Below are positions 26,297 to 61,500 of a DNA stretch of 64,000 bases, one piece after another. Numbering within the stretch: the stretch's first letter is position 1; each line of letters opens with the position of its first letter. The notes under the pieces were generated by a model, which made no database searches, was not told where the DNA came from, and saw nothing but the letters and a program-made list of their open reading frames with translations. The position numbers were made by a program, and so were the translations under genes. Source of the stretch: Acanthochlamys bracteata (Eukaryota; Streptophyta; Magnoliopsida; Pandanales; Velloziaceae); NCBI GenBank assembly GCA_019914995.1, contig CM034134.1, positions 3,790,463 through 3,854,462 on the forward strand, written 5' to 3'.

Positions 26297-27930
26297 GTAA
26301 TATCTCAAATTTTTTAATAGGTAGTCTTGTCAACATAAATGAATTGGGGTGTGTAAGTGGGTCTGTCGGTGGACTCCAAACCCAACACCGTGTATTAAGT
26401 CCTTATCTAGAACCCTCTAATCTTTAATTTTCTTACTTACCTTCTCTAATGTTTTGCTTTCTTTCACCTCTCCCTCCCGAGCCTTGCAGTGTAAACTCTC
26501 CGCCGCTCCAAACTCTCCGCCGGCGTTCTCATTTCGCTACTGCGGTAAGCTTCCTAAACCGTTGCAATGGCTTGCTTGATGCAATTTAAATTCGGCCGAA
26601 ACCCTAATTGCCGGAATCCGGCGAATTTGAGAGCTCCACTGTTTGGCCGAAATTTGTTTCTTCGTCGGCGGCTGTCGCCGTGAGCAACCCAAACAGTCGC
26701 TTTCGTTGCTACTGCTGCTACCTCTGTCTCACTACTAAAATTTTTCAGTGGTCGGAACTTTAATCGCCGGAGTCCGGCGAACAAGCGGCCGGAATTGTTA
26801 GGTGAGCTGCTATACTTAATGTCGTCGTTAAGACTTGTTATTGAAGTAATTATTAATCTTTTCTATGCGGTAGGTATTTTCCTCAACCGGAGGCATTAAA
26901 GTTCGACATAAATACTTGAGCTAATTAGGAGCTTAGTCGATTCGTCATCTAGTTAGGTAAGCTTTTGTCTAACTAGTATTACTTTTAAGAATGACATAGA
27001 ATTTGCGATTTCGAGGGAAGTTAAATCCAAGTGTATGCATTAATGTTGTTGTAGAGCTATAGCTTGGTAAATGCCTAGTGATCGATAATGTTGATTAATG
27101 GACATTAGTAATTATTTGCGTATAATTGTTAGGCTTGAAAAGAGGAAGATAGTGTTCTAAGAAAATTGTAGCGGTTTGAGCAATAACGAAGGAATTTAAG
27201 GTGATGGTTATCGTGCCATCTTTTTCTCCCTAGATTAACGCTAAACCTTTGGCACAGGTAATATTACTTTGATCCTCGAGCATACCTTGCCATTTTCATG
27301 CATTTTACGATTATACCCTTCATAATGCATAATTATATGTGATATATGTTTTCTTGATATGATAAGTATTTATGATAATATAAATAGTTACTTGGATTTA
27401 CAATATGTGGATAAATGTATCAATGAGTATTAAATGGAAATTTGAAAGATGAGCTATGTATATATGGTTTATGAACATTTGGATAAATGTTATTATGCCT
27501 TATTTAAAGAGTTAAATGATTTATGACGATGATTTTATTGATTTTCTAAATGATTTGAAAACGATTTCGTATGATATTATTATGCTTTCATTTAATAAGC
27601 TATATATTATGTGTGACGATTAATTTGAGTTTTATTTAAAATGTCATTTATTGAGGTAATTTGTGGATTTTGAAATGTTTAGAGATTCGCGCTGCATTGA
27701 GGTAGGCGATAGTCAGGGGCTGAGTTCAGGATTTCTCTCTCCTCTCTCTTTCGTCTGTAGATTAGGTGGGCCCATGCGCGTGGGGGCGATAATACCACGG
27801 CACCCGGGTTAAATATATGGATATGTGGACGAGCTGGAGACGCGGTCTCGCTCAGTCCTTGGTATCTATCCTGACTCCTTGACTGGTAAAATTTTTGTGG
27901 ATTGATGTTTGGCAATAAATTTTTGATTGT
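26297..27930 (+). repeat. Gypsy-type LTR-like sequence B
   Basis: Begins with 'tgtaatatctcaaatttttt', very like the starts of many plant Gypsy LTRs, then has the CT/CCGG-rich leader ('gccggaatccggcgaat'), the landmarks shared with sequence A, and AT-rich DNA. No internal element sequence adjoins it, so a solo LTR is possible. The right terminus is uncertain. Small open frames inside are not credible genes. Confidence 0.45.
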
Positions 27931-28384
27931 TATAAGTTCTTAATTTACTTATTTGTTTGGCTTTTAATATGACCTTCACTATTAATTAGATATTTTTATA
28001 ATTTATTTACCTATATATTTATTTGTTATTTAATATGTTGTACTCTTAACTATCTATAGTTAATTAAATTTTTATTCAATATTTCTTTTCTTAAATTGGA
28101 ATGTCTATGCTATACTTTTAAGAATAATATAAAATACTTATATAGCGGAAAAACATAGTTCCTTGATTTTATTGTATGATTGGTTGTTTGAAGTATATGC
28201 ATTGCATATAGCCGAACCTCTTGTACTAAGGACTGAGTTGGTATGGGACGACTCAGGACTTAGTAATAATGATTTTGATCCAATCCCTGCATTTTTGTAC
28301 ATGTAGAAAATTAGTATGTAAACATTAGGATAATGCATTAGAAAACTTAAATGGTGCATCTGTTATTTTTAACCTCACTAAGAT
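27931..28384. other. AT-rich spacer before the tandem array
   Basis: About 450 bp of AT-rich DNA. No gene is recognised, and it shows no similarity to the array units. Confidence 0.4.
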
Positions 28385-28413
28385 TATACAATATTGATTT
28401 TGCTGGAAGTGAT

Positions 28414-28898
28414 TTGTTGTATGAATACGATGGCATATTTCGTAGATCGAAGAGTAATATGCTTTACAATTTTAGGAAGTATATAGAATTTCAAAAGAAC
28501 CCCATATCGATCACCGAGTTCGATAGGAACTTGCTAGAGGCGAGAGCGTCTTCTACGAGGACGAGAATTTCTAAATTGGCATATTCGAAGACCACAAGGT
28601 TCGGGACGGTAGAACGGTATTATTCCTCAAACAACTAATGACTGACTGCACTAAATATGGAGTATTGAAGGCACAGATGCTCTTGATTCATTACAATACG
28701 AAATACTCATAATGTTTGCCCGAGTAAAATGTGTTCCAGCATAAGAAGATTGCTAAAGGCACACGGATGAAGAAAACAGTTCCGTTGACCCTGACAAATG
28801 GCAGCACTTATTATCACCAACTACGACGAAGTATAACTTACGCCAGATACGAGTTATACAATGTGGACAGAAGGTTGCTCGATCCAAACCTTCCGTGA
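28414..28898 (+). pseudogene. Protein-like block of the array unit (unit 1 example)
   Basis: A plus-strand stretch of about 160 codons present in all seven units. It reads like real protein, with segments such as 'YNFRKYIEFQKNPISITEF' and, in later units, 'KKTTLLTLTNGTTFYHQL' and 'YELYNQDRRLLDPSLP'. It is basic and mixed alpha/beta in flavour. The reading is interrupted several times, and the interruptions are largely shared between units, so the block was probably already non-functional when the array formed. I do not recognise the family. It may descend from a host gene, a transposon or a virus-like element, and I treat it as a fossil. Confidence 0.45.
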
Positions 28899-29270
28899 AT
28901 ACGAGAAAGCTTAACTCACCGCATTCACTCGACCGCCATGTGATTAGATTCCTTGTTTTGGTAAAATAATATTTGATAAGTTGGGGATTTCTAATCGTCC
29001 GCTAATTGATTTGCATCTTTTACAGAATGTGGTAGCATCCTTACTGCGATTGCAAAACACGTAAGAAAATTGACGTAAAGATCATCGAAAATTTTTAACA
29101 AATCAAAGTTTTGGGAAAAGTTTCTTTCCAAGTTTTCTACGATGGTCTTTCGTTTTTAGAAGTGATCGGCGATCAACTTATATCAACAACGTTCATTCGA
29201 AAACTTGATATAGGAAATAAACTTATTAGTTACAATATCATCGAAATAATGACCAAGTCTGAAATCTTTA

Positions 29271-29280
29271 CTATATAAAG
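29271..29280 (+). promoter_or_regulatory. TATA-like motif conserved in the array units (unit 1 example)
   Basis: 'ctatataaag' followed by 'tgcactgtcg'. Equivalents occur near 33211, 34874, 40745, 42346 and, more weakly, 43996; unit 4 has a shorter version near 36566. It lies in the non-coding part of the unit. Conservation could reflect common descent only, so promoter function is inference. Confidence 0.3.
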
Positions 29281-30716
29281 TGCACTGTCGTGAACATAAA
29301 GATCGTATGACCGAATAAGGTCATCCATTGCACCTGTTCGTTATATGCAATTACGAGCAGCTCTTCATAATTTATGCGAAAGTAATGTATGTTATTGACA
29401 AAGTTCTATTTACCTATTCTAACGTATTGAAACCAACTTTCAAATTCGTTGCTCCAAAGCATTTGTTAAAGTTTTCCAAGTTGCAAGTAAAAAACCTGTT
29501 TGATCAATATTAATCCATGCACGAAAATTACAACTTTATAATCAAATTCATGTATTTGTCGAATCATTAAAGAAATAAAATATGAATATTAGATTAATAC
29601 TTTGTATCATCTAAACACACTATATTTACAATTGTTAGAAAAATGAGAACGAAGCTACATCATCCAAAAAATTGCATCACTATTACACGGAAGTGGCTGA
29701 TGCAGGAATAGCGCCGAACGTTTTGTGAAATATTCATCGTTTGAGCGTTAGAATGGAACAGATAGTGGAATGAAAAACCATAACTAGCACAGCTGTACAA
29801 AGAGAGAGTCGTGACCCCATACGACCACAGAACCACCTGATTAGAACCGTGGATGTTCCAACTAAAGTATGCATTGCATATGTTCAATAATTCACAGTAC
29901 ATGCATTGGAGAGAATGACAAAGGCTGTTTTTTAGTAACCGTTTATCCCACAACAATGCAATACTTTATGCGCGGACATGTTCCTGTAAAGCAAACAACA
30001 ATAAAATTAAAAATACTCATGGCGAACACTCACGACATTGCAAGTGATACAGTATCGATTTTGCTGGAACTGATTTTGTTGTATGAATATAATGGCATAT
30101 TTCATAGATCGAAGAGTAGTATGCTTTACAATTTTAGGAAGTATATAGAATTTCAAAAGAACCCCATATCGATCACCGAGTTCAACAGGCACTTCCTAGA
30201 GGCGAGCGTCTTCTACGTGCACGAGAATTTCTAAATTGGCATATTCGAAGACCACAAGGTTCGGGACGGTAGAACGGTATTATTCCTCAAACAACTAATG
30301 ACCGACTGCACTAAATATGGAGTATTGAAGGCACAGATGCTCTTGATTCATTACAATACGAAATACTCATAACGTTTGCCCGAGTAAAATGTGTTCCAGC
30401 ATAAGAAGATTGCTAAAGGCACACGGATGAAGAAAACAATTCTGTTGACCCTGACAAATGGAAGCACTTTTTATCACCAACTACGACGAAGTATAACTTA
30501 CGCCAGATACGAATTATACAATGTGGACAGAAGGTTGCTCGATCCGAACCTTCCGTGAATACGAGAAAGCTTAACTCACCGCATTCACTCGACCGCCATG
30601 TGATTAGATTCCTTGTTTTTGGTAAAACAATATTTGATAAGTTGGGGATTTCTAATGGTTCGCTAATTGATTTGCATCTTCTATAGAATGTGGTAGCATC
30701 CTTATAGCAATTGCAA

Positions 30717-33015
30717 GGACTTGGGAATTAGTTCCACTTCCTCAAGGACGCAAAGCTATTAGTAACAAATGGGTCTACAAGATCAAGCATGGTAGCAATG
30801 ATCAAGTAGAACGGTTTCGTGCCCGATTGATTGTAAAAGGATATGCACAAAAGGAAGGAGTCGACTTTGATGAAATCTTCTCTCCGGTAGTTCGTTTGGC
30901 AACAATTCGTGTGGTCTTGGCATTGTGCGCATCATCGGGTCTCCATCTTGAACAACTCGAAGTGAAGACGGCATTCTTACACGGTGAGTTGGAAGAGGAG
31001 ATATACATGGTCCACCCAGAAGGCTTTGTCGAGGTAGGCAAGGAGAACTTGGTTTGCCAGTTAGTCAAATCTCTTCATGGGCTTAAGCAGGCACCAAGGT
31101 GCTGGTATAAGAGATTTGATGGTTGTATCGGGAGCCTCGGATACAGCAAGCTAGTCTCAGACTCTTGTGCTTACATCAAGCAGTTTGAGGGAGGTGAGTA
31201 TGTCATCTTGCTGCTGTATGTGGATGATATGCTTGTGGCGAGCCAAAGCATGGAACGCATCCAACAATTGAAAGTTCAACTAGCTAGTGAATTTGATACA
31301 AAAGACTTGGGTCCAGCAAACAAGATTCTTGGAATGCAGATATGACGAGACAGAGACAATAGAGAAATCCGACTATCCCAGGCTGGCTACCTAGGGAAGG
31401 TGTTGCAGCAGTTTGGCATGCAAACAAGTAAGTCGGTGTTTACCCCTTTTTCTATTAGTCTCAGGTTATCTTCTTTGGGATGTCCTAGGCAAAACAAGAA
31501 GAAGATGGAGATGTCTAGGGTACCATATGCATCTGCAGTGGGAAGCCTTATGTATGTCATGGTATGCACTCGGCCAGACATTGCCCAAGCAGTGGGAGTG
31601 GTGAGTAGATACATGGCAAATTCAGCCTATGAGTACTGGATGGCTGTCAAAAGAGTATTTCGATATATTAACGGTACTCTAGATGCTGCATTGTGTTACA
31701 AAGGGTCTGAATGTCTTGTCAAAAGTTTTTTGGACTCGGATTATGCGGGTGATGTTGATAGGAGGAAATCCACTTCTGGTTATGTGTTCACCCTTGCAGG
31801 TGGTGCTGTTAGTTGGTGTTCAAAACTGCAATCTGTTGTAGCTCTTTCCTCACAGAAGCAGAGTATATGACAGCAACGGAAGCATGCAAGGAAGGCATAT
31901 GGATGAAGAGATTGCTGGAGGAACTAGGCTACAAACAAGAGAGCCATTGCCTCTATTTTGTGATAGTCAAAGTGCCCTACATCTTGCAAGAAATGCAGCA
32001 TTTTATTCCAGAACGAAACACATTGAAGTGCAATATCACTTTGTTCGTGATATGGATTCCGGTGGGAGTATTAACTTACTCAAAATTCCTACCAAGGAGA
32101 ATCCCGCAGATGCCTTAATGAAGGCAGTTTCTTTTGACAAGTTTGAATTTTGTAGAACTTTGTATGGAATCACAATGGACAACAACAGGGACAGCAGTGG
32201 TAGTGGTCACAGGTATCCTAAGAAAGCATATCAAGAAAGCAATGAGTTAGGGGAAAATTGACTAAGGCATGATGAACTTCGGAAGTCAGCTAGTAAGTAC
32301 ACTAGCCCTTGCTCCGCTCTGCCTTTATCTATTTTCAGTACCTCTGATGCGGGTACTTTCGTACCAATTTTTTACTTTCTTGGAAAGACATGACAAAGTG
32401 TCTTTAAATAGAAATTTTATTGGATATAAAGACACTTTGATGAGATTCTAATCAAGTAGTCCACAAGTAGCTGTTGGTAGTCCACCATTTAGTCCAACAT
32501 AGCTCTTATGGTAGTTATGTCTAGATTTATTCATGAAGAAATTATGTCCAGATTAATGAAGAAGTTATGTCCAGATTCATGAGGAAGTCATGTCTAGATT
32601 CATCTAACTACCATAAGGAAGTTATGCCAACGAACTAATTCCAAAGAGTTACTTTGGATAGTTAGTTATTTAGTGGACTAGCTATCAAAGTATTTTCTTA
32701 CATACTATATATATGTCCCAAATGTGTGGAATTTGGGAAAACTAGAAGAAGCATACAAAGAAGCATGCAAAGAGAGAATGCAAGCAATAAAGCAAAGTTG
32801 TAAGCATACATTGTAATCTCTTCTTATAGTGATATTTATTTTGGTGTGACCACACCACCGTGGGATTTTTTCTCGTTTTTCCCCACGTATATCTTGGTGT
32901 TGTGTGATTGCTTTATTCATCTTTAAAAATCTCAACTTGGATTGCAAGATCCTAATGTGTGCTATATATTCTGCAGTGCTATTTTTCGTTCGTGCACACT
33001 ACCGTATTCCCAACA
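30717..33015 (+). mobile_element. Copia-1-family fragment inserted in array unit 2
   Basis: Plus-strand reverse transcriptase (from about 30720, with 'LLYVDDMLVASQSMERI' near 31215), RNase H (to about 32150, with 'TKHIEVQYHFVRDMD' near 32030) and a 3' LTR (32418-33015). It matches the corresponding half of Copia-1 in reverse complement at roughly 90% or better by eye. The 5' half of the element is absent and the copy is broken. It begins abruptly inside the coding region, next to array DNA. Confidence 0.88.
32418..33015 (+). repeat. 3' LTR of the Copia-1-family fragment
   Basis: Starts near 'tattggatataaag' and ends in 'tattcccaaca'. It is the reverse complement of the Copia-1 LTR at 441-988, with short length differences in a region of repeated 'gaagttatgtccagatt' phrases. 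Confidence 0.75.
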
Positions 33016-33981
33016 AGATCATCGAAAATTTTTAAGAAATCAAAATTTTGTGAAAAGTTTCTTTCCAAGTTTTCTACGATGGTCTTCCGTTTTTAGAAGT
33101 GATCGACTATCAACTTATATCAACAACGTTCATTCGAAGACTTGATATAGGAAATAAACTTATTAGTTACAATATCATCAAAATAATGACCAAGTCTGAA
33201 ATCTTTATTATATAAAGTGCACTGTCGTGAACATAAAGATCGTACGACCGAATAAGGTCATCCATTGCGCCTGTTCGTTATATGCAATTACGAGCAGCTC
33301 TCCATAATTTATGCGAAAGTAATGTATGTTATTGACAAAGTACTATGTACCTAGTTCTAATGTATTGAAACCAACTTTCAAATTCGTTGCTCCAAAGCAT
33401 TTGTTAAAGTTTTCCAGGTTGCAAGTAAAAAACCTATTCGATCAATATTAATCCATGCACAAAAATTACAACTTTATAATCAAATTCATGTATTTGTCAA
33501 ATCATTAAAGAAATAAAATATAAATATTAGATTAATAATTTGTATCATCTAAACACACTATATTTACAATTGTTAGAAAAATGAGAACGAAGCTATCTCT
33601 TCCAAAAAAATTGCATCGCTGTTACACGGAAGTGCCTGATGCAGGAATAACGCCGAACGTTTTGTGAAATATTCATCGTTTGAGCGTTAGAATGGAACAG
33701 ACAGTGGAATGGAAAACCATAACTAGCGCAGATGTACAAAGAGAGAGTCGTGACCCCATACCACCACAAAACCGCCTGATTAGAATCGCAGACGCTCCAA
33801 CTAGAGTATGCATTGCATATTTTCAATAATTTACCTTAATGCATTGGAGAAAATGACAAAGGGTGGTTTTTAGTAACCGTTTATCCCCCAACATTGCAAA
33901 TATTTTATGCGCGAACAAGTTCCTGTGAACCAAACAACAATAAAATTAAAAATACTCGTGGCGGACATACACGACACTTCA

Positions 33982-35662
33982 TATGATACAATATCAATTT
34001 GTTGGAAGTGATTTTGTTGTATGAATATGATGGCATATTTCATAGATCGAAGAGTAATACGGTTTATAAATTTAGGAAGTGTATCGAATTTCGAAAGAAC
34101 CCCATATTGATTACCGAGTTCGACTGGAAATTCCTAGAGTCCAGCGTCTTCCAAGAGCACGAGAATTTCTAAATAGGCATATTCAAAGAGCACTAGTTTT
34201 GGGACGGCAGAACGATATTATTCGTCAAACAACAAGTGACCTACTGCACTAAATATAGAGTATTGAAAGGACAGAGGCTCCAGGTTCATTACAGTACGAA
34301 ATACTCATAACGTTTGCCCAAGAAGAATGTGTTGCAGCGTAAGAAGATCCCCAAAGGCACACGGTTGAAGAAAAAAACTTTGTTGACCCTAACAAGTGGC
34401 ACCACTTTTTATCACCAACTATGACGAAATATAACTAGCACCACATACGAATTATATAGTGAGGACAGAGGGTTGCTCGATCCGAGCCTTATGTGAATAC
34501 GAGCGAAAGCTTAACTCACCGCATTCATTTGACCGCCACGTGATTAGATACCTTGTTATTGGTCAAACAATATCTTGAAAAGTTGGGGATTTCAAATGGT
34601 CCGCTAATAGATTTGCTTCTTCGACAGAATGTGGTAGCATGCTTACTTGGATTGCAAAACATGTATGAAAATCGACGTAAAGATCGTCGAAAATATTTGA
34701 GAAATCAAAATTTTGGGAAAAGTTTCTTTCCAAGTTTTCGACTATCGGCTTTCGTTTTTAGAAGTGCTCGGCTATCAACTTATATCAACAAAGTTCATCC
34801 GAAGACTAGATATAGGAAATAAACTTATTATTTACAATATCATCGAACTAATGACCAAGTCTGAAATCTATACTATATAAAGTGCACTGTCGTGAACATA
34901 ATGATCGTACGATCGAATAAGGTCATCCATTACGCCTGTTTGATACATGCAATTACGAGAAGCTCTCTATAATTAATGCGAAAGTAATGTATATTCTTGA
35001 CAGAGTACTATTACCTATTGCTAATGTATTTGAAAGCAACTTTCAAATACATTGCTCCAAAACATTTGTTAAACTATTACAGGTTGCAAGTAAAAAAGCC
35101 ATTCGATCAATATTAATCCATGGACGACAAATAGAACTTTATAATCAACTTCACGTTTTTGTCTAATAATTAAAAAAATAGAATGTAAATATCAGATTAA
35201 TACTGTATATCATATACATACGCTATATTTACGATTGTTACAAAAATGAGAACGAAGCTACCTTGTTCAAAAAATTGCATCGCTATTACACGAAAGTGGC
35301 TGATGTAGGACTAACGCTAAACGTTTTATGAAATATTCATCGTTTGAGCGTTAGAATGGAATAGATAGTGCAATGAAAAAAGATAATTATGCTTGCCAAA
35401 AAAAGCACAAATGTTACAAAGTTAGAATCGTGACCCCATACCACCGCAGAACCACCTGATTAGAATCGCAGTCGGTCCAACTAGAATATGCATTGCATAT
35501 GTTCAATAATTTACAGTACATGCGTTTGAGAAAATGGCAAACGTTGGTTTTTAGTGACCCTTTATCCCACAACAATGCGAATATTTTATGCGCGGACAAG
35601 TTCCTGTGAACCAAACAACAATAAAATTAAAAATACTCGTGGCGGACATACACGACATTTGC
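33982..35662 (+). repeat. Array unit 3
   Basis: Complete unit of about 1680 bp, moderately diverged from units 1-2. Confidence 0.85.
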
Positions 35663-36944
35663 AAATGATACAATATCGATTTTGCTGGAAGTGATTTTGT
35701 TGTATGAATGTACTGGCAAATTTCATAGATGGAGGAGTAATATGCGTTATAATTTTAGAAAGTATGTCGAATTTCGAAAGAACCCCATATCGATTACCGA
35801 GTTCGACAGGAACTTCGTAGAGGCGAGCGTTTTCTACGAGTACGATAATTTCTAATTAGGCACATTCGTAGAGCACTAGGTTCGGGACGGGAGAACGGTA
35901 GAACGGTAATATTCGCCAACCAACTAATGACGGACTGCACTCAATATAGAGTATTGAAAGGACAGATGCTCCTGATTCATTACAATACGTAATACTCATA
36001 ACGCCTTGCCCAAGAAGAATGTGTTGCAGCATAAGAAGATCCCCAATGGCACACAGTTGAAGAAAACAACTCTGTTGACCCTGACAAACGGCACCACTTT
36101 TTATCACCAACTACGACGAAATATAACGTACGCCAGATACGAATTATATAACCAGGACAGAAGGTTGCTCGATCCAAGTCTACCGTGAATACGAGCGAAA
36201 GCGTAGCTCACCGCATTCATTCGACCGCCATGTGATTAGATTTCTTGTTATTGGTAAAACAATATCTTGAAAAGTTAGGGATTTCTCATGGTCCGCTAAT
36301 TGATTTGCATCTTCTACAGAATATGGTAGCATCCTTACTACGATTTCAAAACACGTAAGAAAATCTACTTAAAGATCAACGAAAATATTTGAGAAATCAA
36401 AATTTTGGAAAAAGCTATTTTCCAACTTTTCTACGATCGTCTTTCGTTTTTAGAAGTGATCGACTATTAACTTATATCAACAACGTTCATTTGAAGACTT
36501 GATATAGGAAATAAACTTATTAGTTAAAATATCATCGAACTAATGACCAAGTCTGTAATCTTTACTATTAAAGTGCACTGTCGAATAAGGTCATCCGTTA
36601 CGCTTGTTTGTTACATGCAATTACGAGCAGCTCTCTATAATTCATGTGAAAGTAACGTATATTCTTGACAGAGTACTATTACCAAGTTCTAATGTATTTG
36701 AAACCAAATTTAAAATACATTGCTCCAAAACATTTCTTAAACTATTCCAGGTTACAAGTTAAAAAGCTGTTCCATCAAAATTAATCCATGTACGACAAAT
36801 AATACTTTATAATGAACTTCATTTATTTGTCAAATCATTAAAGAAATAAAATGTAAATATAAGATTAATACTTTATATCATCTAAATACACTATATTTAC
36901 GATTGTTAGAAAAATGAAAATGAAGCTGCCTCATCCAATTAAAA
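35663..36944 (+). repeat. Array unit 4, left part
   Basis: Unit sequence from the protein-like block through the TATA-like region up to 'aagctgcctcatccaat', where the Gypsy LTR begins. The last ~430 bp expected of this unit are not found on either side of the Gypsy element. Confidence 0.8.
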
Positions 36945-37496
36945 TGTAAACAGTGAGCAAAAGTCAAGGACAGGAGTTGGAATGCTGACCAAAACAGAGG
37001 AAGAGGAACAACGTCGGTCTCGCCGGAGCCGACGACCAGTGATGAGCTGTCAGACCGCCCAGGATGCCAGCCATAAAGATGCACAATGTTTAGCAACCAA
37101 AGGAACCTAGTTGAGGTGCAATAGGGGATGCAAAAGGGCACCTGGTGCAACAGGGAGCAAAAGGGTGCCTGGGTGCAGAACAGGGCGCCCGGGTGCAGTC
37201 TGGAGGCGCCTGGATACTTTTTGAAAAAGCACCTCAGCGCCTAAAAGCCTGCTAGGCACCTATAACTGCCATTTTAAGAGTTTGAATTAATTAGGAGTCT
37301 TTAGTATTTAGTAAATCTTAATGTTTCAATTATAATTCAATTGTAACTCTAGGAGAAGTGTTTTATTGGGATTGTAACTCTTCAATTATAAATAAACAAG
37401 GCATGAACCTAAGAGAAGCATGCAAGTTATCAATAAAACTTAGTAATTTTTTTAGCTCCTAGTTTGACCTTAGCATTAGCAATTCAAGTTGCATCA
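36945..37496 (+). repeat. 5' LTR of the Gypsy fossil
   Basis: 552 bp from TGTAAACAGT to GTTGCATCA. It contains a run of related 'gggtgcctgggtgca' phrases near 37150-37200 and a 'ttataaataaa' stretch near 37390, plausible promoter/polyadenylation sequence of the LTR. Confidence 0.85.
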
Positions 37497-37817
37497 ACTT
37501 GGTATCAGAGCACCAGCAACTCCTTGAGTCATCAGGGGACTTTCCTTATATATGACCTCAACTGAATGGGGCCTCCCATCAGCGAGCTCCACCTTTAATG
37601 GCCTAACCTTTTCAGCTGCTAGTCTTAGATGCTTGGCCAATTGTTCAAAGATAAAGTTATGCGTGCTACCTGAGTCAATCAATTCAAAAACCTCTTGTTT
37701 TTTAATTTTTCCTACAATACGAAGAGTTTGAGGTCCGACCATATCGTTCATGGCGCTAAGGGACAAGGTTGCGTCCTCCATCAGTTCTGTTTCTTCTAAT
37801 GTCTTAGCCAAATCCAC
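37494..37817 (-). mobile_element. Inverted protease block of the Gypsy fossil
   Basis: On the minus strand a clear retropepsin region with the DSGSTHNF active-site motif (near 37670) and the flanking hydrophobic context typical of plant Gypsy proteases. The rest of the element codes on the plus strand, so this block is inverted relative to its host element. Remnant only. Confidence 0.8.
37500..37511 (+). other. Primer binding site of the Gypsy fossil
   Basis: TGGTATCAGAGC, complementary to initiator Met-tRNA, three bases inside the 5' LTR. Confidence 0.85.
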
Positions 37818-39385
37818 CTACGAGAAGGAATTGGTGACGTTGGTCCTAGCAGTCCAAAAATAGAGGCCATACCTTCTTGGGCAGGGATTCACCATCAAGA
37901 CTGATCACTTTAGCTTGAAGTACCTATTGGAGCAACGTTTGTCAACAAACGAACAACATAAATGGCTTGTAAAGCTGCTTGGCTATGACTACCAAATCGT
38001 TTACCGAGCGGGGACACAAAATGTGATGGCAGATGCCCTCTCCCGAAAACCGAATGCCCAGTTGGCAGCATTCACTACCATACATGCTTCCTTTTGGGAT
38101 GACCTACGTGCAGCCCAGCTGAGAGATCCTTTCTTGAAAGAAAAAATTCGGGAGGCAGCAAAGGGAGATCACCTTCAATGGAGATTATCTAACGGGCTTC
38201 TTCTCTGCAGCAACCGAGTTCGTGTGCTTGAAGACACCTCCTTGCGTACACAATTACTGTACGAGGCGCATAACTCGATGGAGGGCATGGCGGGGAGTTC
38301 CACACGTACAAACTTCTTGCACAGCAGTTTTCATGGCCAGGAATGGCTAAGGATGTGCGGAAGTATATCGCAGCTTGCTCTATTTGTGCTCGGGCAAAGG
38401 TTGACTGTCTCAAACCGGCTGGATTGCTGCAGCCCTTACTGATTCCGAAACACATATGGACTGACATTGCAATGGACTTCATTGAAGGGGTGCCCGTGTC
38501 AAGAGGTAAGGACTCAATACTTGTTGTTGTAGATCGTCTCTCTAAGTATGCGCACTTCATTGTGTTGAAGCATCCCTACACGGCAGCCGAAGTTGCTACT
38601 TTTTTTACTAAGGAGATAGTTAGACTCCATGTATGTCCAGCAGCTATAGTCTCCGATTGAGACCCTATCTTCCTTAGCAATCTGTGGAAGGAGCTTCACA
38701 AGGCACAGGGCACTTCTTTACACATGAGCACCGCCTATCATACTCAAACCGACGGACAATCTGAAGTAGTACACAGAGGACTAGAGACTTATCTAAGGTG
38801 TTTTGTAGGAGATCATCCCCACAGGTGGTACTAATGGTTGCATTGGGCAGAGTTTTCTTATAACACTAGCACACATTCTGTCACTAAGACAACTCCTTTC
38901 AAAGCAGTTTATGGCCGTCCCCCTCCTCCTTTAGTTTTCCCTCCAAGGAGCAGTTTACAGTCGGAAGAACTAGGGATTAAACTTCGGGAGCGCGACGAAA
39001 TTCTAAAGGAATTGCGACTACACATACACCGCGCGTAGAATAGAATGAAGCAACTGGCTGATCGGCATCGGAGGGAAAAAAACTACGAACCCGGCAATGC
39101 TGTTTTCCTTAAACTTCGTCCTCGTCGGCAATCATCAGTAGCAGAACGTCGGGATCATAAACTTCGATTCAGATATTATGGTCCCTTCGTGATCGAGAAG
39201 GCTGTGGGACCAGTTGCATACCGGCTCGTGTTGCCTCCTAACTCAAAGATCAACCCGGTCTTCCATGTGTCCCGACTAAAGGATGCACGGCATGTTCCTA
39301 ATGATGACTTTTCCGGTGCTATGACGGATAACGATCTAATTTTACTCGGCTCCGAGGACAAAGCCGAATTTCAAGGGGTGGGGAA

Positions 39386-39938
39386 TGATACAAACAGTGA
39401 GCAAAGGTCAAGAACAGGAGCTGGAATGCTGACCAAAACAGAGGAAGAGGAACAACGTCAGTCTCGCCAGAGCCAACGACCAGTGATGAGCTGTCAAACC
39501 TGTCCGGGATGCCAACCATAAAGATGCACAATCTTTAGCAACCAAAGGAACCTGGTTGAGGTGCAACGGGGGATTCAGAAGGGCGCCTGGTGCAACAGGG
39601 AGCAGAAGGGTGCCTGGGTGCAGAACAGGGAGCCCGGGTGCAGTCTGGAGGAGCCTGGATACTTTTTGAAAAAGCACCTCAACGCTAAAAAGCCTGCTAG
39701 GCACCTATAACTGTCATTTAAGAGTTTGAATTAATTAGGAGTCTTTAGTATTTAGTAAATCTTAATGTTTCAATTATAATTAATTGTAACTCTAGGAGAA
39801 GTGTTTTAGCAGGATTGTAACTCTTCAATTATAAATAAATAAGGCATGAACCAAGAGAAGTATGCAAGTTATCAGTAAAGCATAGAAATTTTTTTAGCTC
39901 TTAGTTTAACCTTAGCATTAGCAATTCAAGTTGCATCA
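39386..39938 (+). repeat. 3' LTR of the Gypsy fossil
   Basis: 553 bp from TGATACAAACAG to GTTGCATCA, preceded by a purine-rich tract. It aligns along its length with 36945-37496. Confidence 0.85.
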
Positions 39939-41459
39939 GAATATGCTGGCAAATTTCATAGGGAGGAGTAATATGCATTATAATTTTAGAAAGTATGTCG
40001 AATTTCGAAAGAACCCCATATCGATTACCGAGTTCGACAGGAACTTCATAGAGGCGAGCGTTTTCTACGACAATTTCTAAATAGGCACATTCATAGAGCA
40101 CTAGGTTCGGGGCGGGAGAACAGTATTATTCGCCAACCAACAAATGACGGACTGCACTAAGTATAGAGTATCGAAAGGACAGATGCTCCTGATTCATTAC
40201 AATACGAAATACTCATAACGTTTGCCCAAGAAGAATGTGTTGCAGCATAAGAAGATCCCCAAAGGAACACGATTCAAGAAAACAACTCTGACAAACGGCA
40301 CCACTTTTTATCACCAACTACGACGAAATATAACGGACGCTAGATACGAATTATATAAGGAGGACAGAAGGTTGCTCGATCCGAGCCTTCCGTGAATACG
40401 AGCGAAAGCTTAACTCACAGCATTCATTCGACTGCCATGTGATTAGATTTTTTGTTATTGGTAAAACAATATCTTGAAAAGTTAGGGATTTCTAATGGTC
40501 CGCTAATTGATTTGCATCTTCTACAGAATATGGTAGCATCCTTACTGCGATAGCACAACATGTAAGTAAATCAACGTAAAGATCATCGAAAATATTTTTT
40601 TCCAACTTTTTTACGATCGTCTTTCGTTTTTAGAAGTGATCGGCCATCAACTTATATCAACCACGTTAATTCGAATAATTGATATAGGAAACAAAACTTA
40701 TTAGTTACTATATCATCGAACTAATGACCAAGTTTGAAATCTATACTATATAAAGTGCACTGTCGTGAACATAAAGATCGTACGATCGAATAAGGTCATC
40801 TCTTATGCCTGTTTGTTACATGCAACTACGAGCAGCTCTCTATAATTCATGCGAAAGTTACGTATATTCCTGACAAAGTACTGTTACCAAGTTCTAATGT
40901 ATTTGAAACCAAATTTCAAATACATTGCTCCAAAACATTTGTTAAACTATTCTAGGTTGCAAGTTAAAAAGATGTTCCACCAAATTATCAGATTAATACT
41001 TTATATCATTTAAATACACTATATTTACGATTGTTAGAAAAATGAAAATGAAGCTACCTCATCCAAAAAATTGCATCTTTGTTACACTAAAGTGGCTGAT
41101 GCAGGACTAACGCCAAGCGTTTTATGAAGTATTCATCGTTTGAGGATTAGAATGGAACAGATAGTGGACTTAAAAATGATAATAGTGCTTGAAAAATAAA
41201 AAAGCATAGATGTGAAGAAGATAGAGTCATGACCCCATACCACCATAGAACCACCTGATTAGAATCGCAGACGTTCCAACTAGAGTATGCATTGTATATG
41301 TTCAATAATTTACAGTACATGCGTTCGAGAAAATGACAAAGGTTGGTTTAGTAACCCTTTATCCCACAACAATGCAAATATTTTATGCACGGACAAGTTC
41401 CTGTGAACCAAACAACAATAAAATGAAAAATACTCCTGGCGGACATACACGACATTGCA
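39939..41459 (+). repeat. Array unit 5 (left end lost at the Gypsy insertion)
   Basis: Picks up at 'gaatatgctggcaaatttcatag', a phrase shared with units 4-6, and runs about 1520 bp to unit 6. The 'tatgctggcaaattt' variant groups it with unit 6. Confidence 0.85.
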
Positions 41460-43099
41460 AATGATACAATATCGATTTTGCTGGAAGTAATATTGTTGTA
41501 TGAATATGCTGGCAAATTTCATAGATGGAGGAGTAATATACGTTATAATTTTAGAGAGTATGTCGAATTTCGAAAGAACCCCATATTGATTACCGAGTTC
41601 GACAGGAACTACATAGAGGCGCGCATTTTCTACAAGTACGACAATTTTTAAATAGGCACTTTCGCAAAGCTCTAGGTTCGGGGCGGCAGAACGGTGTTAC
41701 TCGCCAACCAACTATTGATGGACTGCCCTAAATATAGAGTATTGAAAGGACAGATGCTCCTGATTCATTACAATACGAAATACTCATAATGTTTGCCCAA
41801 GAAGAATGTGTTGCAGCATAAGAAGATTCCAAGAGGCACACGTATGAAGAAAACAACTCTTTTGACCCTGACAAATGGCACCACTTTTTGTCACCAACTA
41901 CGACGAAATATAACGGACGCCAGATACGAATTATATAACCAGGACAGAAGGTTGCTCGATCCGAGCCTTCCGTGAATACGAGCGAAAGCTTAACTCACCG
42001 TATTCATTCGACCGCCATGTGATTAGATTTCTTGTTATTGGTAACACAATATCTTGAAAAGTTGGAGATTTCTAATGGTCCGCTAATTGATTTGCATCTT
42101 CTACAGAATGTGGTACCATCCTTACTGTGATCGCAAAACACGTAAGGAAATCGACGTAAAGATCATCGAAAATATTTGAGAAATCAAAATTTCGGAAAAA
42201 GCTTTTTTTCTAACTTTTCTAGAATCGTCTTTCATTTTTATAAGCTATCAACTTATATCAACAACATTCATTCGAAGACTTGATATAGGAAATAAACTTA
42301 TTAGTTACAATATCATAGAACTAATGACCAAGTCTGAAACTATACTATATAAAGTGCATTGTCGTGAACATAAAGAACGTACGGTCGAATAAGGCCATCC
42401 GTTGCGCCTGTTTGTTACATGCAACTACGAGCAGCTCTCTATAATTCATGTGAAAGTTACGTATATTCTTTACAGAGTACCATTACCAAGTTCTATTGTA
42501 TTTGAAACCAAATTTCAAATACATTGCTACAAAACATTTGTTAAACGATTCTAGGTTGCAAGTTAAAAAGCTGTTCCATCAAAATTAATCCATGTACGAC
42601 AAATAATACTTTATAATCAACTTCATGTATTTGTCAAATCATTAAAGAAATAAAAGGTAAATATCATACTAATACTTTATATCATCTAAATACACTATAT
42701 TTACGATTGTTAGAAAAATGAAAACGAAGCTACCTCATCCAAAAAATTGCATCCCTGTTACACGAAAGTGGCTGATGTAGGACTAACGCCAAGCATTTTA
42801 TGAAGTATTCATTGTTTGAGCGCTAGAATGGACCATATAGTGGAATGAAAAATTATGACTATGCTTGAAAAATAAAAAAGCACAGATGTGACGAAGATAG
42901 AGTCGTGAACCCATACCACCACAGAACCTCCTGATTAGAATCGCAGACGCTCCAACTATACTATGCATTGCATATGTTCATTAAAATTTACATTACATGC
43001 GTTAGAGAAAATGACAAAGGCTGTTTTTTTGTAACACTTTATCCCACAACAATGCAACAATAAGATTAAAAACACTCGTGCGGACGGACACACAATTGC
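41460..43099 (+). repeat. Array unit 6
   Basis: Complete unit of about 1640 bp. It has the longest uninterrupted stretch of the second half of the protein-like block (41793-41975). Confidence 0.85.
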
Positions 43100-44394
43100 A
43101 AATGATACAATATTGATTTTGCTAGAAGTGATTTTGTTGTACGAATATGCTGGCATGTTTCATAAATCGAAGAGTAATATGTTGTATAATTTTAGGAGGT
43201 ATATCGAATTTCGAAAGAACACCATACCGATCACCAAGTTCGACAAAAACTTCCTAGAGTTGAGCGTCTTCTACGAGCACGAGAATTTCTAAATAGGCAT
43301 ATTCGTAGAGCACTAGGTTCAGGACGACAGAACGGTGTTATTCGTCAACCAACTAATGACCGACTGCACTAAATATAGAGAATTGAAAAGATAGATGCTC
43401 CGGTTTCATTACAATATGAAATACTCATAACGTTTGCTCAAGATGAATGTGTTGCGGTATAAGAAGATCCCCAAAGGCACACGGATGAACAAACAATTCT
43501 GTTGACCCTGACAAATGGCAAAACATTTTATGACCAACTACAATGAAACATAACGAAAGCCAGATACGAATTATATAATGAGGACAGAAGGTTGCTCGAT
43601 CCGAGCCTTCTGTGAATACGAGCGAAAGCTTAACTCACCGCATTCATTCGAATGTCATGTGATTAGATACCTTGTTATTGGTAAAACAATATCTTGAAAA
43701 GTTGGGGATTTCTAATGGTCTGCTAATTGATTTGCATCTTCTACAGAGTGTGGTAGCATCCATACTGCGATTGCGAAACACGCAATAAAATAGACATAAA
43801 GATCATCGAAAATAGTTGAGAAATCAAAATTTTGGAGAAAGTTTCTTTCCAAAGTTTTTGTACAATTGTCTTTCATTTTTAGAAGTGATCAGCTATTAAT
43901 TTATATCAACAACGTTCATTCGAATAATTGATATAGGAAACAAAACTTATTAGTTACTATATCATCGAACTAATGACCAATTCTGATATCTTAATTATAT
44001 AAAATGGACTGGCTAGAACATAAAGATCCTCCGATGGAATAATGTCATCCGTTACGCTTGTTTGTTATATGCAATTAAGAACAGCTCTCAATAATGCATG
44101 TGAAAGTAATGTATACTCTTGACAGAGTACGATTACCTAGTTCTAATGCATTTTTAAATATAATAGGAACATCGTATAACTTTACATGATATATCAGCTT
44201 TCAAATCCATTGCTCCCAAGCATTTGTTAAACTATTTCGGGTTGCAAGTAAAAAAGCTGTTCGATCAATATTAGTCCATGTATGATAATTAGAACTTTAT
44301 AATCAACTTCAGGTATTTGTCAAATCAATAAAGAAGTAAAATATAAATATAAGATAAATACTTTATAGCATCTAAATACACTATATTTACGATT
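43100..44394 (+). repeat. Array unit 7 (right end of the array)
   Basis: About 1295 bp. It is more diverged than the others and carries an extra AT-rich segment near 44150-44200. Homology ends at 'tatatttacgatt', about 350 bp short of a full unit. Confidence 0.8.
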
Positions 44395-50394: not shown

Positions 50395-52420
50395 CTAAAG
50401 AAACTTCTGCTCCAGTATGTTTGCGAGGATGTTCGTTCGCTGACGTTTGATGGTTGAAGACGTCTCATCGGCAGTCGCTCGTTCAATCACAGCCTTGAGG
50501 GATTCCTGGATCATGCTGAGGTTCTCCGGCTTATTTACGTTATCAGTGTCCTCTTCTGCGGTGACAATGAGCACATTCTTTACACGACCTCCGAGAGTTG
50601 TCATCTCGGCCTTGAGTGCACGGAGTTTTAGAGCCTTGAGTGTTCGGATAAGATCAGGAAGTAGGTCGGAGCGATCATCGCAGCAGAGAGAGGCGCGTAC
50701 GATGAACTTCCCGTCCTCATCGTTTGCTGTATCAATTGTAAGCTCATCAGTCTCGGTTGGCAGTGGACTCTCTTGTGCGATCTCCGATGTCTGCCGTTTG
50801 AGTTCTTTCACATGTTGGATCACCTCTGCAAGTAAAGATGCCTTGTCGGTCTGCAAAACAAATTCCCATGTACCGAGTGATCAGTCGGAGAACTCAACAT
50901 CGGCCACGAAACACGTACAAAAGAGTTCTAGAATTTTAGAAACCTTATTGGGTAGGTAGGAGATACAACTTTAGTGGACGACTTGACTGAAAAATGAGAG
51001 ACTATTGTAAAGCATACGGTACGCTTGGAAGAGAAAGTCATGGGCTAGAAAATGCAAATTGTGCAGGCTAAGTGGGATTTCACGGTTGTTTAATATCATC
51101 AATATCGGTTTAATATTCATGGAAGAGAAAGATAGTTATGAGAAGGGAAGGGTTGTGGCTAACTAGTGGTGATGAGATATATAATGGATTGTGTAGGTAT
51201 AGTAGCTAGCAAGACATGGTTATGCTGCTGGTGTGCTTTTCATATGACGAAATCCGACACTAGAGCTCGTCTTTGTCACTGTTGGTACCACTGCAGCTCC
51301 AGCAACAATTAGTACTCAATGAGAGCTTTTTCGTTGCTCTTTCATGAGTCAACTTTATAATGCCAAAAAGCAATGATTTCTTGTTCAGTCTGTTAGTACA
51401 GCAGCAAAGGAAGCAAGCAAAGTACGGGAAGGTTTGAAGTGGAACAACAAACTGAAGCACAACAGTCTCTGAATTAGTTACAATTGGAACAACTTCATCT
51501 GTACTGTTGACTATGGTTCGTGTTGAATTTCTTATTAAACTAGGGTGATTGATCTAGTGGTCTTGCAAAGGAAGACTGTGTTAGTTAAGTGAATCAAGGA
51601 CCGTTAACTGCCCTATAATCTTTCACATTAAAACTTAAGCTTTTGTTATTCGAAAGAGAGTAATCTATAAATATGATCAACAAGGAGAAAATTAAATTAA
51701 AGGTAAAATAGTACTAGCTAGTAAGTAGACGGATATATTAAACCTGTGTCCTGGAGCCCTATGAACTGAAATGTTATATGGGGTAGCATATATTACCTTG
51801 GTGGTGTTGGGTAGCATGCTGCGGAGCATGGCAAGATGCCCATTTATTCGCTCCCGGCGTCGGCGCTCGGCCTCACTATGGCTTCTGGATGCAGCGAGAG
51901 CCTTGGCGTCCATTATTTCCTGTGCTGTCATCCGACTGAATTCTGCTTGAAGACCACCAAACGGATATGAAGAAGTCGACACTGGTCCTCCTCGAGGGAA
52001 AGCTTCTGATCCACACAAACCGGGTAGTCCCAGAGGATTTACTGAAGAGTTGCCACCACCACCTCTGTAATTATAAGCAAACTGAAGAGAAGATGAAGCT
52101 TTACGAACTCCGTAGAAGGGAGGCAGAGGTGGTGATGTTCCAAAGGGAAGTTGGGGAAGTGATGGAATGGAAGGAAACAAGACGTCTTGAAGGCCAACAT
52201 CATGGAAATGGTGATCTATGCGGCCAACCGGCGCAATCGAACATGACCGAGAAGTTGCAATTTCATGATCTGACGAAAATATAAACCCTTCATCTCCTTC
52301 TCCTCCTTCACCATAGCTGCGATTAATGGTGGCTGTGGTGCAGTGCTGTAGTAGGGGATCTTGGTGATAAACTTGTAACTCTTGAATCCCATTAGATGAA
52401 CACCCGTTATTCATCTCCAT
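50395..52420 (-). CDS. bHLH transcription factor of the bHLH30/bHLH32 (TMO5-like) group
   Basis: Two exons on the minus strand: 52420-51797 and 50850-50395, with a 946-bp intron (GT at 51796-51795, AG at 50852-50851) in phase 0. The protein is 359 residues, close to the 340-370 of Arabidopsis bHLH30 and TMO5. Residues 1-165 are low-complexity and family-variable, with Gly/Ser and Pro patches. The bHLH domain spans about 178-230: basic region 'SHSEAERRRRERIN' with the H181/E185/R189 E-box-binding triad, helix 1 'GHLAMLRSMLPNTTK', then after the splice 'TDKASLLAEVIQHVKEL'. The C-terminal half, about 255-325, contains 'RASLCCDDRSDLLPDL' and 'GGRVKNVLIVT', an ACT-like dimerisation region typical of this group. 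Known members act in the nucleus, and TMO5 pairs with LHW to control vascular cell division. Which paralogue this is cannot be settled here. The splice point inside the bHLH domain and the intact frame support an active gene. The start is ATG 52420; the second Met codon is two residues later. Confidence 0.95.
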
Positions 52421-55979: not shown

Positions 55980-56200
55980 GTACAAGTGTAATATTATCCG
56001 TCTACCGTATAGTAAATAATGAGTTTGCGATCAAAAATCTTTCAATCATATTCAACTCTTCAATACTCATACAAGTACATATATATAGACTCTTTATAAC
56101 ACTAAATAAGGAAAATTCGAAATAAGAAAAGATATCTAATTATAAGAAAAGATATTCTAATATAACTGAAATACTAGATATATATTGACTCACACGAATA
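55980..56200 (-). repeat. 3' LTR-like end of Copia-3 copy A
   Basis: Shares 'tcatacaagtacatatatat' and the following 'actaaataagga' block with 58360-58410, and ends next to a purine-tract remnant ('ctcctgctcaagttgg'). The left boundary is approximate. Confidence 0.5.
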
Positions 56201-58344
56201 CTCCTGCTCAAGTTGGTGCGAAAATATCACCAGTAGTCAACTTGCTCAGTAAGTAATAAAAGATTCTATTTGAAACATATTCTCTTAATATATTTGCTAA
56301 CTGTGCTTCTGAACTTATAAAAAATAACTCAATCAATTTTGACTCTATTTTTATTTTGAAGAATATGTCGATCCACCTCAACATGTTTGGTGCGATCATA
56401 TTGCACTAGATTATAGTCTCATAAGATTTCTTTAAGGAAAACCAAGTTCTGTCAACAATATTCGAAGGCACAAAAGTTTACAAACTCCATGTGTCATTTC
56501 TCCATATTCAGCTTCAGCAGAAGATCGAGCAACCACTTCTGTTTCTTACTCCTCCATGTGACTAAATTATCACCAACAAACGTAAAAAAGCAAGATGTCG
56601 AACGCTTGTCTGTCTTATCTCCTGCCTAGTCAATATATCCATCTCTAGTCATATGGTTATTATTTTTAATAGTAGTCTTTTGCCTGGTGCTGATTTCAAA
56701 TATCTCCAAATTTTTTTCACAACTTGCATGTGATCAACATTTAGAGAATGTATAAACTGGCTAATAACACTCACCGCATATGATATATCAAAGCGAGTAT
56801 GCAATAAATAAAATAACTTGCCTAGTAATAGTTGATATTTTTTCCTTAACTGCTAGTACTAGATCAGGATATTCTTCTAAGTTATTATTCTCAATGATTA
56901 GTGCAGCGGCTGGTATGCAAGTTGACTCCCCTATCTCAGACAATAAGTTAAGGATATTTTTTTTTTATGATAGAAAAATACCTTATTTAGACATCGCCAC
57001 TTTAATGTCAAAGAAATATTTTCAGCTCTATAAATTCTTTAATCTCGAATTCAGAGGCTAGATATTTATTTAATATCTGAATTTCTTCCTCAACATTATC
57101 AACATAGTTTATCAAAACTGTTACCTTATCATTTTAGTTCTTCAAGAATAATGTATGACTAAGGCTTGACTAAATCTACGAAATCATGCTCTTGAAGATT
57201 ACTTCATAGAGAAAATCTCTCAAGAGAGTTTTAAGATTTTCTCTGTGGCAATTGATAACTCTTGTTAACAATGTTAGATTTATTCACAGCAATATTCTGA
57301 TTATCAGTACATACCTTAGGGATATCCTCGGAAGTTTGAGCTTGTACTATTGGATGCGAGTGAGAGATTTCTTCCACACTCCAACTCTTACTATTTCTTC
57401 CGTTTCTTTTAGTTTAAGTTAAGTAGTTCTAATCTCCTCCAAACCTGAGTCATGACTCACACATTGCCTATGATATTTCTCAATATGTGTATTGAGTCCT
57501 ATAGTAAACCAGTTCACATATTCCGTAGCTTCTATCTCCCCTTGAAGATTTTAATGTGACACCGATTTCATGAAATACATTTTTTACTCTAGAATTATCA
57601 CATTTATAGTCAAAATTTTACGATGTGTCGGAGGTTGATAGTTGTGATAACCTTTCTACTGAGGACAATAACCAAGAAATATGCACCTCAAAGCACATTG
57701 ATCAAACTTATCCTCTGCAAATGTTCTAGTGCAATAGATACAAAAATCTGATATGGAAGTGAGATGACAGAAAGTATAGTAATAAATGTAGATAAAACCT
57801 TGAATGTTGTCCAAATATTCAGCACTCTAGTGGCACGCTGTGAATCAGATAAACTGCAAACTAAATTGTGTATACCCAATAGTGTTTTGGAATATGGGTT
57901 TTAAACAATAAAGCACGGTCGTTCTCTATGATATGTCGATTTTTCCTTTCAGCCACTCCATTTTGTTGTGTTGTATGTTGATAAGAAATTTTGTAAATAA
58001 TGTCATGCTGAAGTAGGAACTCAAAGACATTAACGTACTCCCCCACATTATAGATCGAAAAACTCGAAATAAAAGAAAATTTGTGTTTACACCATATTAT
58101 GAACTGCACAAATATATCTACTATATCACTTTTATTTTTCAAAAGATATAACCAAATTGTAACTATGCAATCATTGACAAATGTCGAAAATCACCTGACA
58201 CAGTATGAGTCATAATCGGAAAAGGTCCCCAAATATCCTAATGCACTAATTCAAAGAGAGTTGTTATGTTGTTCATAACAGGTAAGGCACTCGGTGACTC
58301 TTATTAAGAATGCAAGCTTCACACTAAAACCCAGACTCTTTAGA
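55980..58344 (-). mobile_element. Copia-3 copy A (partial)
   Basis: Minus-strand order from the right: pre-integrase/integrase (from about 58340, with 'YKISYQHTTQQNGVAERKN' near 57980), then reverse transcriptase and RNase H remnants (56210-57300) and a 3' LTR-like stretch (about 55980-56200). It parallels copy B block for block but lacks gag and is broken many times. Its right edge abuts the LTR of copy B. Confidence 0.8.
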
Positions 58345-58508
58345 TGAAAACATTTTCAATCTTATTCTTCTCATTCAATACAAGTACATATATATAAACT
58401 TGTTATAAAACTAAATAAGAAAAGTTCTAAATAAAAAAAGAGATCTAAAATATAATATAATTTTATGGAAAGATATTTAGAATAATATATAGTTGATCCA
58501 CGCTAACA
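58345..58508 (-). repeat. Partial 3' LTR of Copia-3 copy B
   Basis: About 164 bp ending 'cgctaaca', followed by the minus-strand polypurine tract 'TTGAGGGGAAG'. It is shorter than a full LTR and directly adjoins the pre-integrase end of copy A. Confidence 0.65.
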
Positions 58509-61500
58509 CTTCCCCTCAAGTTGGTGCAAAGATAACATCAATGCCTAACTTGTTCAGTGAGTCATGAAAGATTTGGTTTGAAACTCCTTTTGTCAATAAA
58601 TCTGCTAACTGTGCCTCTGAAGCCACAAAAATTAACTCAACCAATTTGCTTCCAACTTTTACTTAATAAAATATCGATCGACCTCAACATGTTTGGTCCT
58701 ATCATGTTATACTCGATTATCAGCAATATTTATCGCTGCCTTGTTATCACAGGACATTTTGATAGTACTTTTAGGAGGAAAACCAAGCCCCGTCAATAAA
58801 ATTTGAAGTCATAAGAGTTAACAAACTCCATGTGCCATCCCTCTTTATCCAACTTCAAAAGACGATCGAGCAACCACTTTCTGTTTCTTACTCCTCGAAG
58901 TGAGTAGATTACCACCAACAAATATAAAACAGCCGAATGTAGAGCGTCTATTTGTCTTATCTCCTACCCAATATGCATCAGTATATCTATCAATATTCAG
59001 ATGATTATGCTTTCTGAATAATAATCACCTACTTGGTGCTGACTTCAAATATCTGAAAATTCTGTTCACTACTTCCATATGATTAACACTTGGAGAATGT
59101 ATAAACTGACTAATAATGGTCCTGCATATGCTATATTAGGGCGACATGCGATGAATAAATCAACCTGGCAACCAATTATTGATATTTTCCAGTAGCTCTT
59201 GGCACTTGATCAGAATAATCTGCTATGTTGTGATTCTCAATGATTGGTGTATTGGCTGGTTTGCAATCTGACATCCCTGTTTCAGACAATAACTCAAGAA
59301 CATATTTTTTTGATGATAGAGAAATACCTTGCTTAGACCTTACCACTTCAATTCCCAAAAAATATTTCAACTCTCCAAATTCTTTCATCTCAAATACAGA
59401 GGCTAGATATTTATTTAGCCTCTGAATTTCTTCATGATCATTATTTGTAACAATCATATCATCAACATAGTTTATCAAAGCAGTTACCTTATCATTTTGG
59501 TTCTTCAAAAATAATGTATGTTCAGTATTACTCTGTTGGTAACCATATCTACTCAAGGCTTGACTAAATCTACCAAACCATATTCTTGGAGATTGCTTCA
59601 GCCCATATAAAGCCGTTCTTTAACTTGCAGACATATTCAGTCCTTCCCGATACCCCATAGACAGGTAGAAGCTCCATATAAACTTCTTCTTCTAACTTAA
59701 CATGAAGAAATGAATTCTTTACATCAAACTGCTGCAAGAGACAGTAATACTCTGATGGTATTAATTTGGCAACTGGGCGAAAGTCTCATGATAATCCACT
59801 CCATAAGGTCTGTGAGTATCCCTTGGCCACTACCTTGCTTATACCTCTCTATCGTTCCATCTGCTTTTTGTTTGATTATATACACCCATTTACAACTAAC
59901 TGCTTTCTTATCTTCGAGTAGTGGCACTATCTCCTAGTCAAATTCTTCTAAAGAGGATCCATCTCTTCATTCATAGCCTTAGTCCATTTAGGATCGGATA
60001 AGACTTTCCTAGTGCTAGAAGGAAGAGTCGCAGCTGATACCTGATTAATGAAAGCCACATATGAAAAAGACAGTCTGTGATAAGACACATGATTGGCAAT
60101 AGGATATTTGGAAAATTTTTCTTCCGGTGAATATCTATCAGGAGGTTTTTCACGATTTTCTCTTTGTGGCAACTGATAACTCCTGTTGACAACGTTAGAT
60201 GTAACCATAATAATATTCTGAGTGTGAGTACTTACCTCAGGAATATCCTCAAGAGTTTGAGCTGGTATTGTAGGAAGCAAGAGGGGGGTTTCTTCTACAA
60301 CTTTAGCTTTTTCTATTTGTTCCGTTTCTTTTGGTTCAAGTTCAATAGTCTCAACCTCCTCCAGACCTGAGTCATGATTCACACATTGCCTCTGACCATC
60401 CTCAATATATGTGCTAAGTTTAATAGTAAGCTAATTCAGATCTTCCTTAGCTTCTATCTCCCCCTGAAGATTTGAATGTGATGCCGATTTGACAAAATAC
60501 ATTCCAACTCTACAAATGTCACACCGATGGTCACAAAAGTTTAGCGTGTTGGAGGATGATAGCAGCGATAACCTTTCTAGTGAGGACCATAACCGAAAAA
60601 CATGCAGCTCAAAGCACATGGATCCAATTTGTCTCTTTAGGTTTTCTACAAATGTACTAATGCAACATAACCCAAAATTCGAGGTGGATGTGAGAGGACA
60701 GATGGTATAGTAAGAAATGAACATAAAATCTCAAGTGGTGTCCGAAAGTTCAGAACCCTAGATAGAATGCAATTAATCATATAAATAGCAAACTGAATTG
60801 CACCTACCCATTAATGCTTAGGAACATGAGCTCCAAACAATAAAGCACGGGCGATTTCTAATATATGTTTATTTTTTCTTTCAGCTACTCCATTTATTGA
60901 GGTGTTGTGGATAGGAAGTCTCATGAATAATACCATGTTGATGAATGTAAGAGGTCAAAGATGTATTAACATACTTCCCCCCCTATTATCAAAGCAAAAA
61001 ATTTGAATAGGAAAGAAAAATTAAGTCTGCACCATCTTATGAAACCACACAAAGATATCACCAACATCACTTTTATTCTTCAAAACATATAACAATGTCA
61101 TATCTGTGCAATCTTCTACAAATGTCACAATCCACCTAACACTAACAAAAGTCATAACCGGAGAGGGTCCCCAAACATCCAAATGGACTAACAAAAAATG
61201 GGTTGTTCTTTTTTTGATAATAGAAAAATACAACACTTGATGACTCTTAGCAAGAATACATGCTTCACACTGATACTCAGACTCTTTGAGACCAAAAAAT
61301 AAAGATAATAGTAAATGTTTTAAAGAATAAAAAGACACATGACTTAGACGGCGATGCCAAAGCCATACTTTATTCTTCTTATCCAAATAGTATTAGTACC
61401 ACGCCTAATACTTATGTGTCTGAATATCCTGAAAAGTAAGCAAAAATAAGGATACATAAGAACAAGCAGTTCAACTGTTCATTAACTTGTCCAATAGATA

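Follow-up and report, generated by a model that had tools for sequence, protein, structure and literature searches.

A probable satellite-like tandem repeat with long AT-rich monomers in several short arrays

The window, by which we mean the whole stretch of 64,000 nucleotides analysed here (C9:3790463-3854462 of a 195.5-Mb assembly), contains a tandem array of a kilobase-sized unit, and further arrays of related units are present elsewhere in the genome. We consider it probable, at roughly 0.8, that they represent a noncoding, AT-rich, long-monomer tandem repeat of satellite-like type (~1.62-1.69 kb), which exists as several short arrays and has spread by unequal exchange together with segment duplication, the array of the window (array A) being in decay. 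The tandem amplification put forward in an earlier note on this DNA is judged right as an origin. A single amplified gene fragment, also suggested there, is not borne out: the genome search revealed several arrays that make up a small family of repeats.

Structure of array A and its retrotransposon inserts

Self-comparison of the window, which the earlier note had proposed for 28-45 kb, displays head-to-tail repetition of seven unit copies in a single orientation between 28383 and 44394. The seven-unit array described in that note is thus confirmed, its end points being correct within 2 bases, and so is its unit length of ~1.65 kb; uninterrupted neighbours are spaced by ~1.57-1.69 kb. Two larger spacings, ~3.9 and ~4.2 kb, correspond to the positions of two inserts. 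Long matches between units reach a BLAST E of 0.0, which excludes chance. Pairwise identity among three fully aligned units is 87-88%, and ungapped mismatch in five unit pairs ranges from 8.6 to 15.1%. Near-complete units occupy 28383-30043, 33982-35664 and 41461-43101; of the other four, a copia piece divides one, another is 5′-short with an internal gap and two are truncated, at phase ~1287 and ~1248. All phases are given relative to unit 6. The features, all on the + strand, are as follows.

26600..28382, +: left neighbour of array A, truncated piece of an LTR-like repeat that is dispersed in high copy number (identified from genome matches and a relative in array D)
28383..30043, +: unit 1, near complete
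30044..30716, +: unit 2, first part, interrupted by the copia piece at phase ~672
30717..33014, +: copia piece, from reverse transcriptase to 3′ LTR, 5′ part missing (87% to the reverse of 440-2658; RVT_2 E 9e-51)
33015..33981, +: unit 2, second part, resuming at phase ~699
33982..35664, +: unit 3, near complete
35665..36945, +: unit 4, stopping at phase ~1287
36946..39938, +: shortened Ty3/gypsy element, LTRs 36948-37496 and 39392-39938, SH3_Tf2-1 domain
39939..41460, +: unit 5, beginning at phase ~42 (first ~41 bp absent), with ~75 bp of internal loss
41461..43101, +: unit 6, near complete, phase reference
43102..44394, +: unit 7, stopping at phase ~1248, the right edge of array A

The two LTR-retrotransposon pieces make up ~5.3 kb of the 16 kb of array A. 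The earlier note, which saw no LTR hallmark in the unit, overlooked both pieces inside the array. The Ty3/gypsy LTR pair is 92.9% identical (BLAST; K2P 0.068 over 546 sites), and ~395 bp of array A have been lost at its site. The array A units differ from each other more than this LTR pair does, so that at equal rates the divergence of the array would probably predate the gypsy insertion.

Related arrays in the genome

The genome was searched with units of arrays A, B and D, and the counts obtained are lower bounds. One search was blurred by a dispersed element contained in its query, and another missed contig C373 though a further one found it, so that the match lists are incomplete. Besides the array loci, the unit matches in this genome include at least an 80-bp piece and some short fragments; no dispersed retrotransposon is among them. 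The related loci are the following.

C9:4.107-4.116 Mb: array B
C9:5.794-5.806 Mb: array C
C9:5.867-5.877 Mb: array D
C7:6.802-6.805 Mb: array E (short)
C7:3.312 Mb: unit fragment
C3:6362703-6362782 (L027:1704-1783): isolated 80-bp piece, 96% to array A unit phase 1188-1267
C373, unplaced contig of 16,568 bp (L016 and L017): unit sequence end to end

The 80-bp piece on C3 is far closer to array A than the other arrays are.

Arrays A, D and E share one orientation, and B and C have the other. Spacings of ~1.62-1.65 kb recur in arrays B, C and D; C also has irregular spacings of 2.1 and 1.2 kb, and D of 4.3 and 0.9 kb. Conservation is fairly even along the unit length. Array A units are 64-69% identical to those of B, C and D, which among themselves reach 82-88%. 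In array B, alternate units are 98-99% identical and neighbours 93-94%, a dimeric order. A tree was built from 19 unit segments, including a partial one (7 rows from A, 5 from B, 3 from D, 4 from C). The A and B units each fall on one side of a branch with support 100/100; support for the D group is weak (64/82). The C units do not form a single group, and two of them join B. Units are therefore more alike within than between arrays for A and B, weakly so for D, and not for C.

The 16.6-kb contig C373 is array throughout. Ten C373 units show 65-82% identity to a B unit and no more than 59-70% among themselves, and deletions exceed insertions in all 11 comparisons; to judge from these figures it resembles an unpolished long-read contig. 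Two C373 units nevertheless depart from B in a shared column 5746 times against 3825 expected for independent errors, with the base shared in 58%, and this excess of shared differences speaks against pure read noise. The assembled arrays have a few units each, but since C373 consists of array over its whole length, the assembly may lack longer ones.

Long arrays are a mark of satellite DNA. Because those assembled here are short, we call the repeat satellite-like and stop short of full membership.

Chromosomal setting and proposed mode of spread

A search for copia reverse transcriptase, in which 150 of 2487 candidates were scored, listed 20 matches on C9. Of these, 14 lie within 3.6-6.45 Mb of the 8.64 Mb, which places the C9 arrays in the transposon-rich middle part of the contig. 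From its transposon density, this part would be the pericentromere. TRF revealed no centromeric satellite in seven sampled 4-kb stretches of C9.

The repeat occurs in several short arrays, most of them in this transposon-rich middle. We suppose that these were enlarged by unequal exchange between adjacent units. Array segments would then have been duplicated or transferred to give further arrays, with partial homogenisation within arrays. Array A is probably decaying: its units are 9-15% diverged, and two LTR retrotransposons have inserted into it. The unit itself would serve no selected function. Array edges fall at differing unit phases; together with the clustering in the tree and the dimeric order of B, this agrees better with unequal exchange and duplication of segments than with an element of fixed ends that inserted repeatedly. 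Against the satellite-like reading stand the shortness of the assembled arrays, the weak D group (64/82) with the split of C, one codon-like unit pair in eight, and a high CpG content.

The layout also bears on the virus-like insertion and the rolling-circle origin evoked in the earlier note. Integrated viral or rolling-circle DNA would share with these arrays the head-to-tail arrangement, and nothing else speaks for it. Array edges at different unit phases leave rolling-circle amplification unsupported, six frames of two units contain no viral protein domain and no Pfam family above cut-off, and there are several arrays with long independent divergence. We regard the probability of such an origin as practically negligible.

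Coding potential of the unit

Each unit had been described as carrying the same protein-like block of ~160 codons. Such a block is not supported: in eight array A unit pieces the longest stop-free stretches measure 66-101 codons, lie on differing strands and at differing places, and are no longer than in shuffled sequences, 15, 49, 65, 76, 80, 86, 137 and 184 of 200 shuffles matching them. A six-frame Pfam search (X at stops) of one A and one B unit returned no family above cut-off and one sub-threshold row with E 0.093. Among the tblastn matches listed between arrays, protein identity is ~28-45% with many stops, for a DNA identity of ~65%.

A scan for synonymous excess was carried out in an unshuffled form, which covered few windows, and in a shuffled form on 8 unit pairs with 100 shuffles each. 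In the latter, a single pair outscores every one of its 100 shuffles (z 4.67; minus strand, phase ~10-190), whereas each of the remaining seven is equalled by 17-90 of its 100 shuffles. In four of the eight pairs the top-scoring window lies at about this phase on the minus strand, and in a fifth it does so in another numbered frame, with units being shared between pairs. We take the codon signal near phase 10-190 as a weak hint of a coding past. Apart from that single pair, no reading frame kept or traceable across the copies was found.

The unit could be imagined as a gene or gene fragment that was duplicated in tandem, its copies now all being pseudogenes and the protein block their remnant. 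Besides the pair above all shuffles and the three more sharing its best window, a 98-codon stretch at phase ~10-190 is open in several B units, with similar residues elsewhere, and the units are CpG-rich. This origin is unlikely all the same: seven of the eight pairs stay within their shuffles, there is neither a stop-free excess nor a Pfam family above cut-off, protein identity falls below DNA identity among the matches listed, and the genome matches listed include no related copy longer than ~0.4 kb outside the arrays.

RNA and CpG properties

The units could also be noncoding RNA units, as small-RNA or long RNA loci. Their folding is slightly more stable than that of shuffles on the two strands (z -1.50 with 0/20 as good, and -1.37 with 3/20), and they retain CpG. 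These z-scores are modest, however, and no long hairpin appeared in an inverted-repeat search of the unit. A tRNA scan gave no match to a known RNA gene; Rfam at gathering level detected no family, a lax search yielding weak, chance-like rows but none in B. We give this alternative very little credence.

High CpG is unusual for silenced repeats. The array A pieces have a CpG observed/expected ratio of 1.23 (408 CG in 10,721 bp), against 0.44 for the copia piece and 0.61 for the gypsy piece inserted in them. For the main stretches that contain B, C and D the ratio is 0.94-1.05, and for smaller ones with C, D and E it is 0.83-0.88. This pattern fits low germline methylation, as far as base composition can tell. 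One could go further and imagine units that are unmethylated in the germline, perhaps transcribed as noncoding RNA, largely tied to one chromosome, and that would have escaped the silencing of the nested retrotransposons; we hold this extended scenario to be distinctly improbable. The flanks of array A are CpG-high too (1.08 at 26-28 kb, 0.98-1.20 at 44-50 kb), as are two other genome stretches (1.10 and 1.23, the latter holding a unit fragment), which counts against a special reading of the CpG of the unit. Transitions account for 0.47-0.59 of differences in eight unit comparisons, versus 0.57-0.78 in 12 comparisons of transposon copies or other repeats, and the ratios of CpG to non-CpG transitions overlap (1.1-1.8 for units, 0.8-3.5 for transposon copies and other repeats).

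Array edges and the LTR-like repeat

An LTR-like repeat adjoins the left edge of array A (window 26600-28382) and the upper edge of array B (L023:721-2636), cut on opposite sides, and has a relative within array D (L011:2000-4652). The latter starts with TG, ends with CA, is flanked by a 5-bp GCTAG duplication and splits a unit at phase ~190. It resembles a solo LTR; we name it LTR-like from its TG/CA ends alone, and a six-frame search of the repeat gave no Pfam family. The repeat is dispersed, with 44 matches from the 40 scored of 484 first-look candidates genome-wide, and with so many candidates its closeness to the arrays requires no special cause.

This association raises the question of whether the unit derives from tandem repeats inside an LTR retrotransposon, like the Ogre-derived satellites of Lathyrus. 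The repeat does adjoin A and B and lie inside D. Yet its dispersal in high copy, its opposite cuts at A and B and the 5-bp duplication inside a D unit make it look secondary to the arrays. The unit, moreover, matched no dispersed element among the matches listed in this genome, the one searched; a transposon of another species may still be its source. We judge this derivation very improbable and retain the satellite-like repeat.

A common parent locus for A and B was considered because the left flank of A strongly matches the upper flank of B, and was rejected. The match is that of the dispersed high-copy LTR-like family and so gives no evidence of common descent.

Comparison with known long-monomer repeats

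The best reading of the repeat is that of a known kind, with close parallels in the long-monomer satellites of Vicia faba. As described in PMC5895790, these have mostly AT-rich monomers that measure 687-2033 bp, with 1619 and 1762 bp among the examples, are unlike other genomic sequences and make up 0.008-2.7% of a large genome; most favour pericentric regions and several are chromosome-specific. The likeness, one of description and not of sequence, lies in the kilobase AT-rich monomers without similarity to other genomic sequence (PMC5895790). In contrast, according to the same account the Vicia satellites are abundant, while here there are few units per assembled array, whose position is deduced from transposon density and not from FISH.

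Lathyrus sativus, as portrayed in PMC7004042, carries retrotransposon-derived tandem repeats in short arrays, and higher-order repeats there occur in two long-array satellites. Short arrays with LTR elements nearby are common to both cases, but the present unit lacks retrotransposon similarity and its LTR pieces look secondary (compare PMC7004042). Solanum long-monomer satellites of up to 5.4 kb share the kilobase unit and the few loci; most are similar to retrotransposons (as cited in PMC5895790), whereas none was found similar to the unit here. On these descriptions, the repeat looks like the Vicia faba long-monomer kind rather than the retrotransposon-derived Lathyrus kind.

The general picture of such repeats is unchanged. 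One chromosome nevertheless offers a readable series, from B, homogeneous and dimeric, through C and D, which are mixed, to A, decayed and broken by transposons, and this series helps the study of the birth and death of short arrays.

Other features of the window

In the flanks of array A (24.5-28.4 and 44.4-49.3 kb), six-frame Pfam searches gave nothing at E 0.05. About 7 kb to the right of the array, a 242-codon open frame at 51692-52417 (minus strand) contains a helix-loop-helix domain (E 2.7e-07). A copia element occupies 440-5315 on the minus strand, with SH3_retrovirus and gag_pre-integrs domains and two ~225-bp LTRs that are 89% identical (K2P 0.114 over 222 sites). Two direct-repeat pairs, 73-74% identical, lie within 56029-61300, and a gag_pre-integrs domain at 61021-61383 (minus strand) suggests that they belong to copia-type copies.
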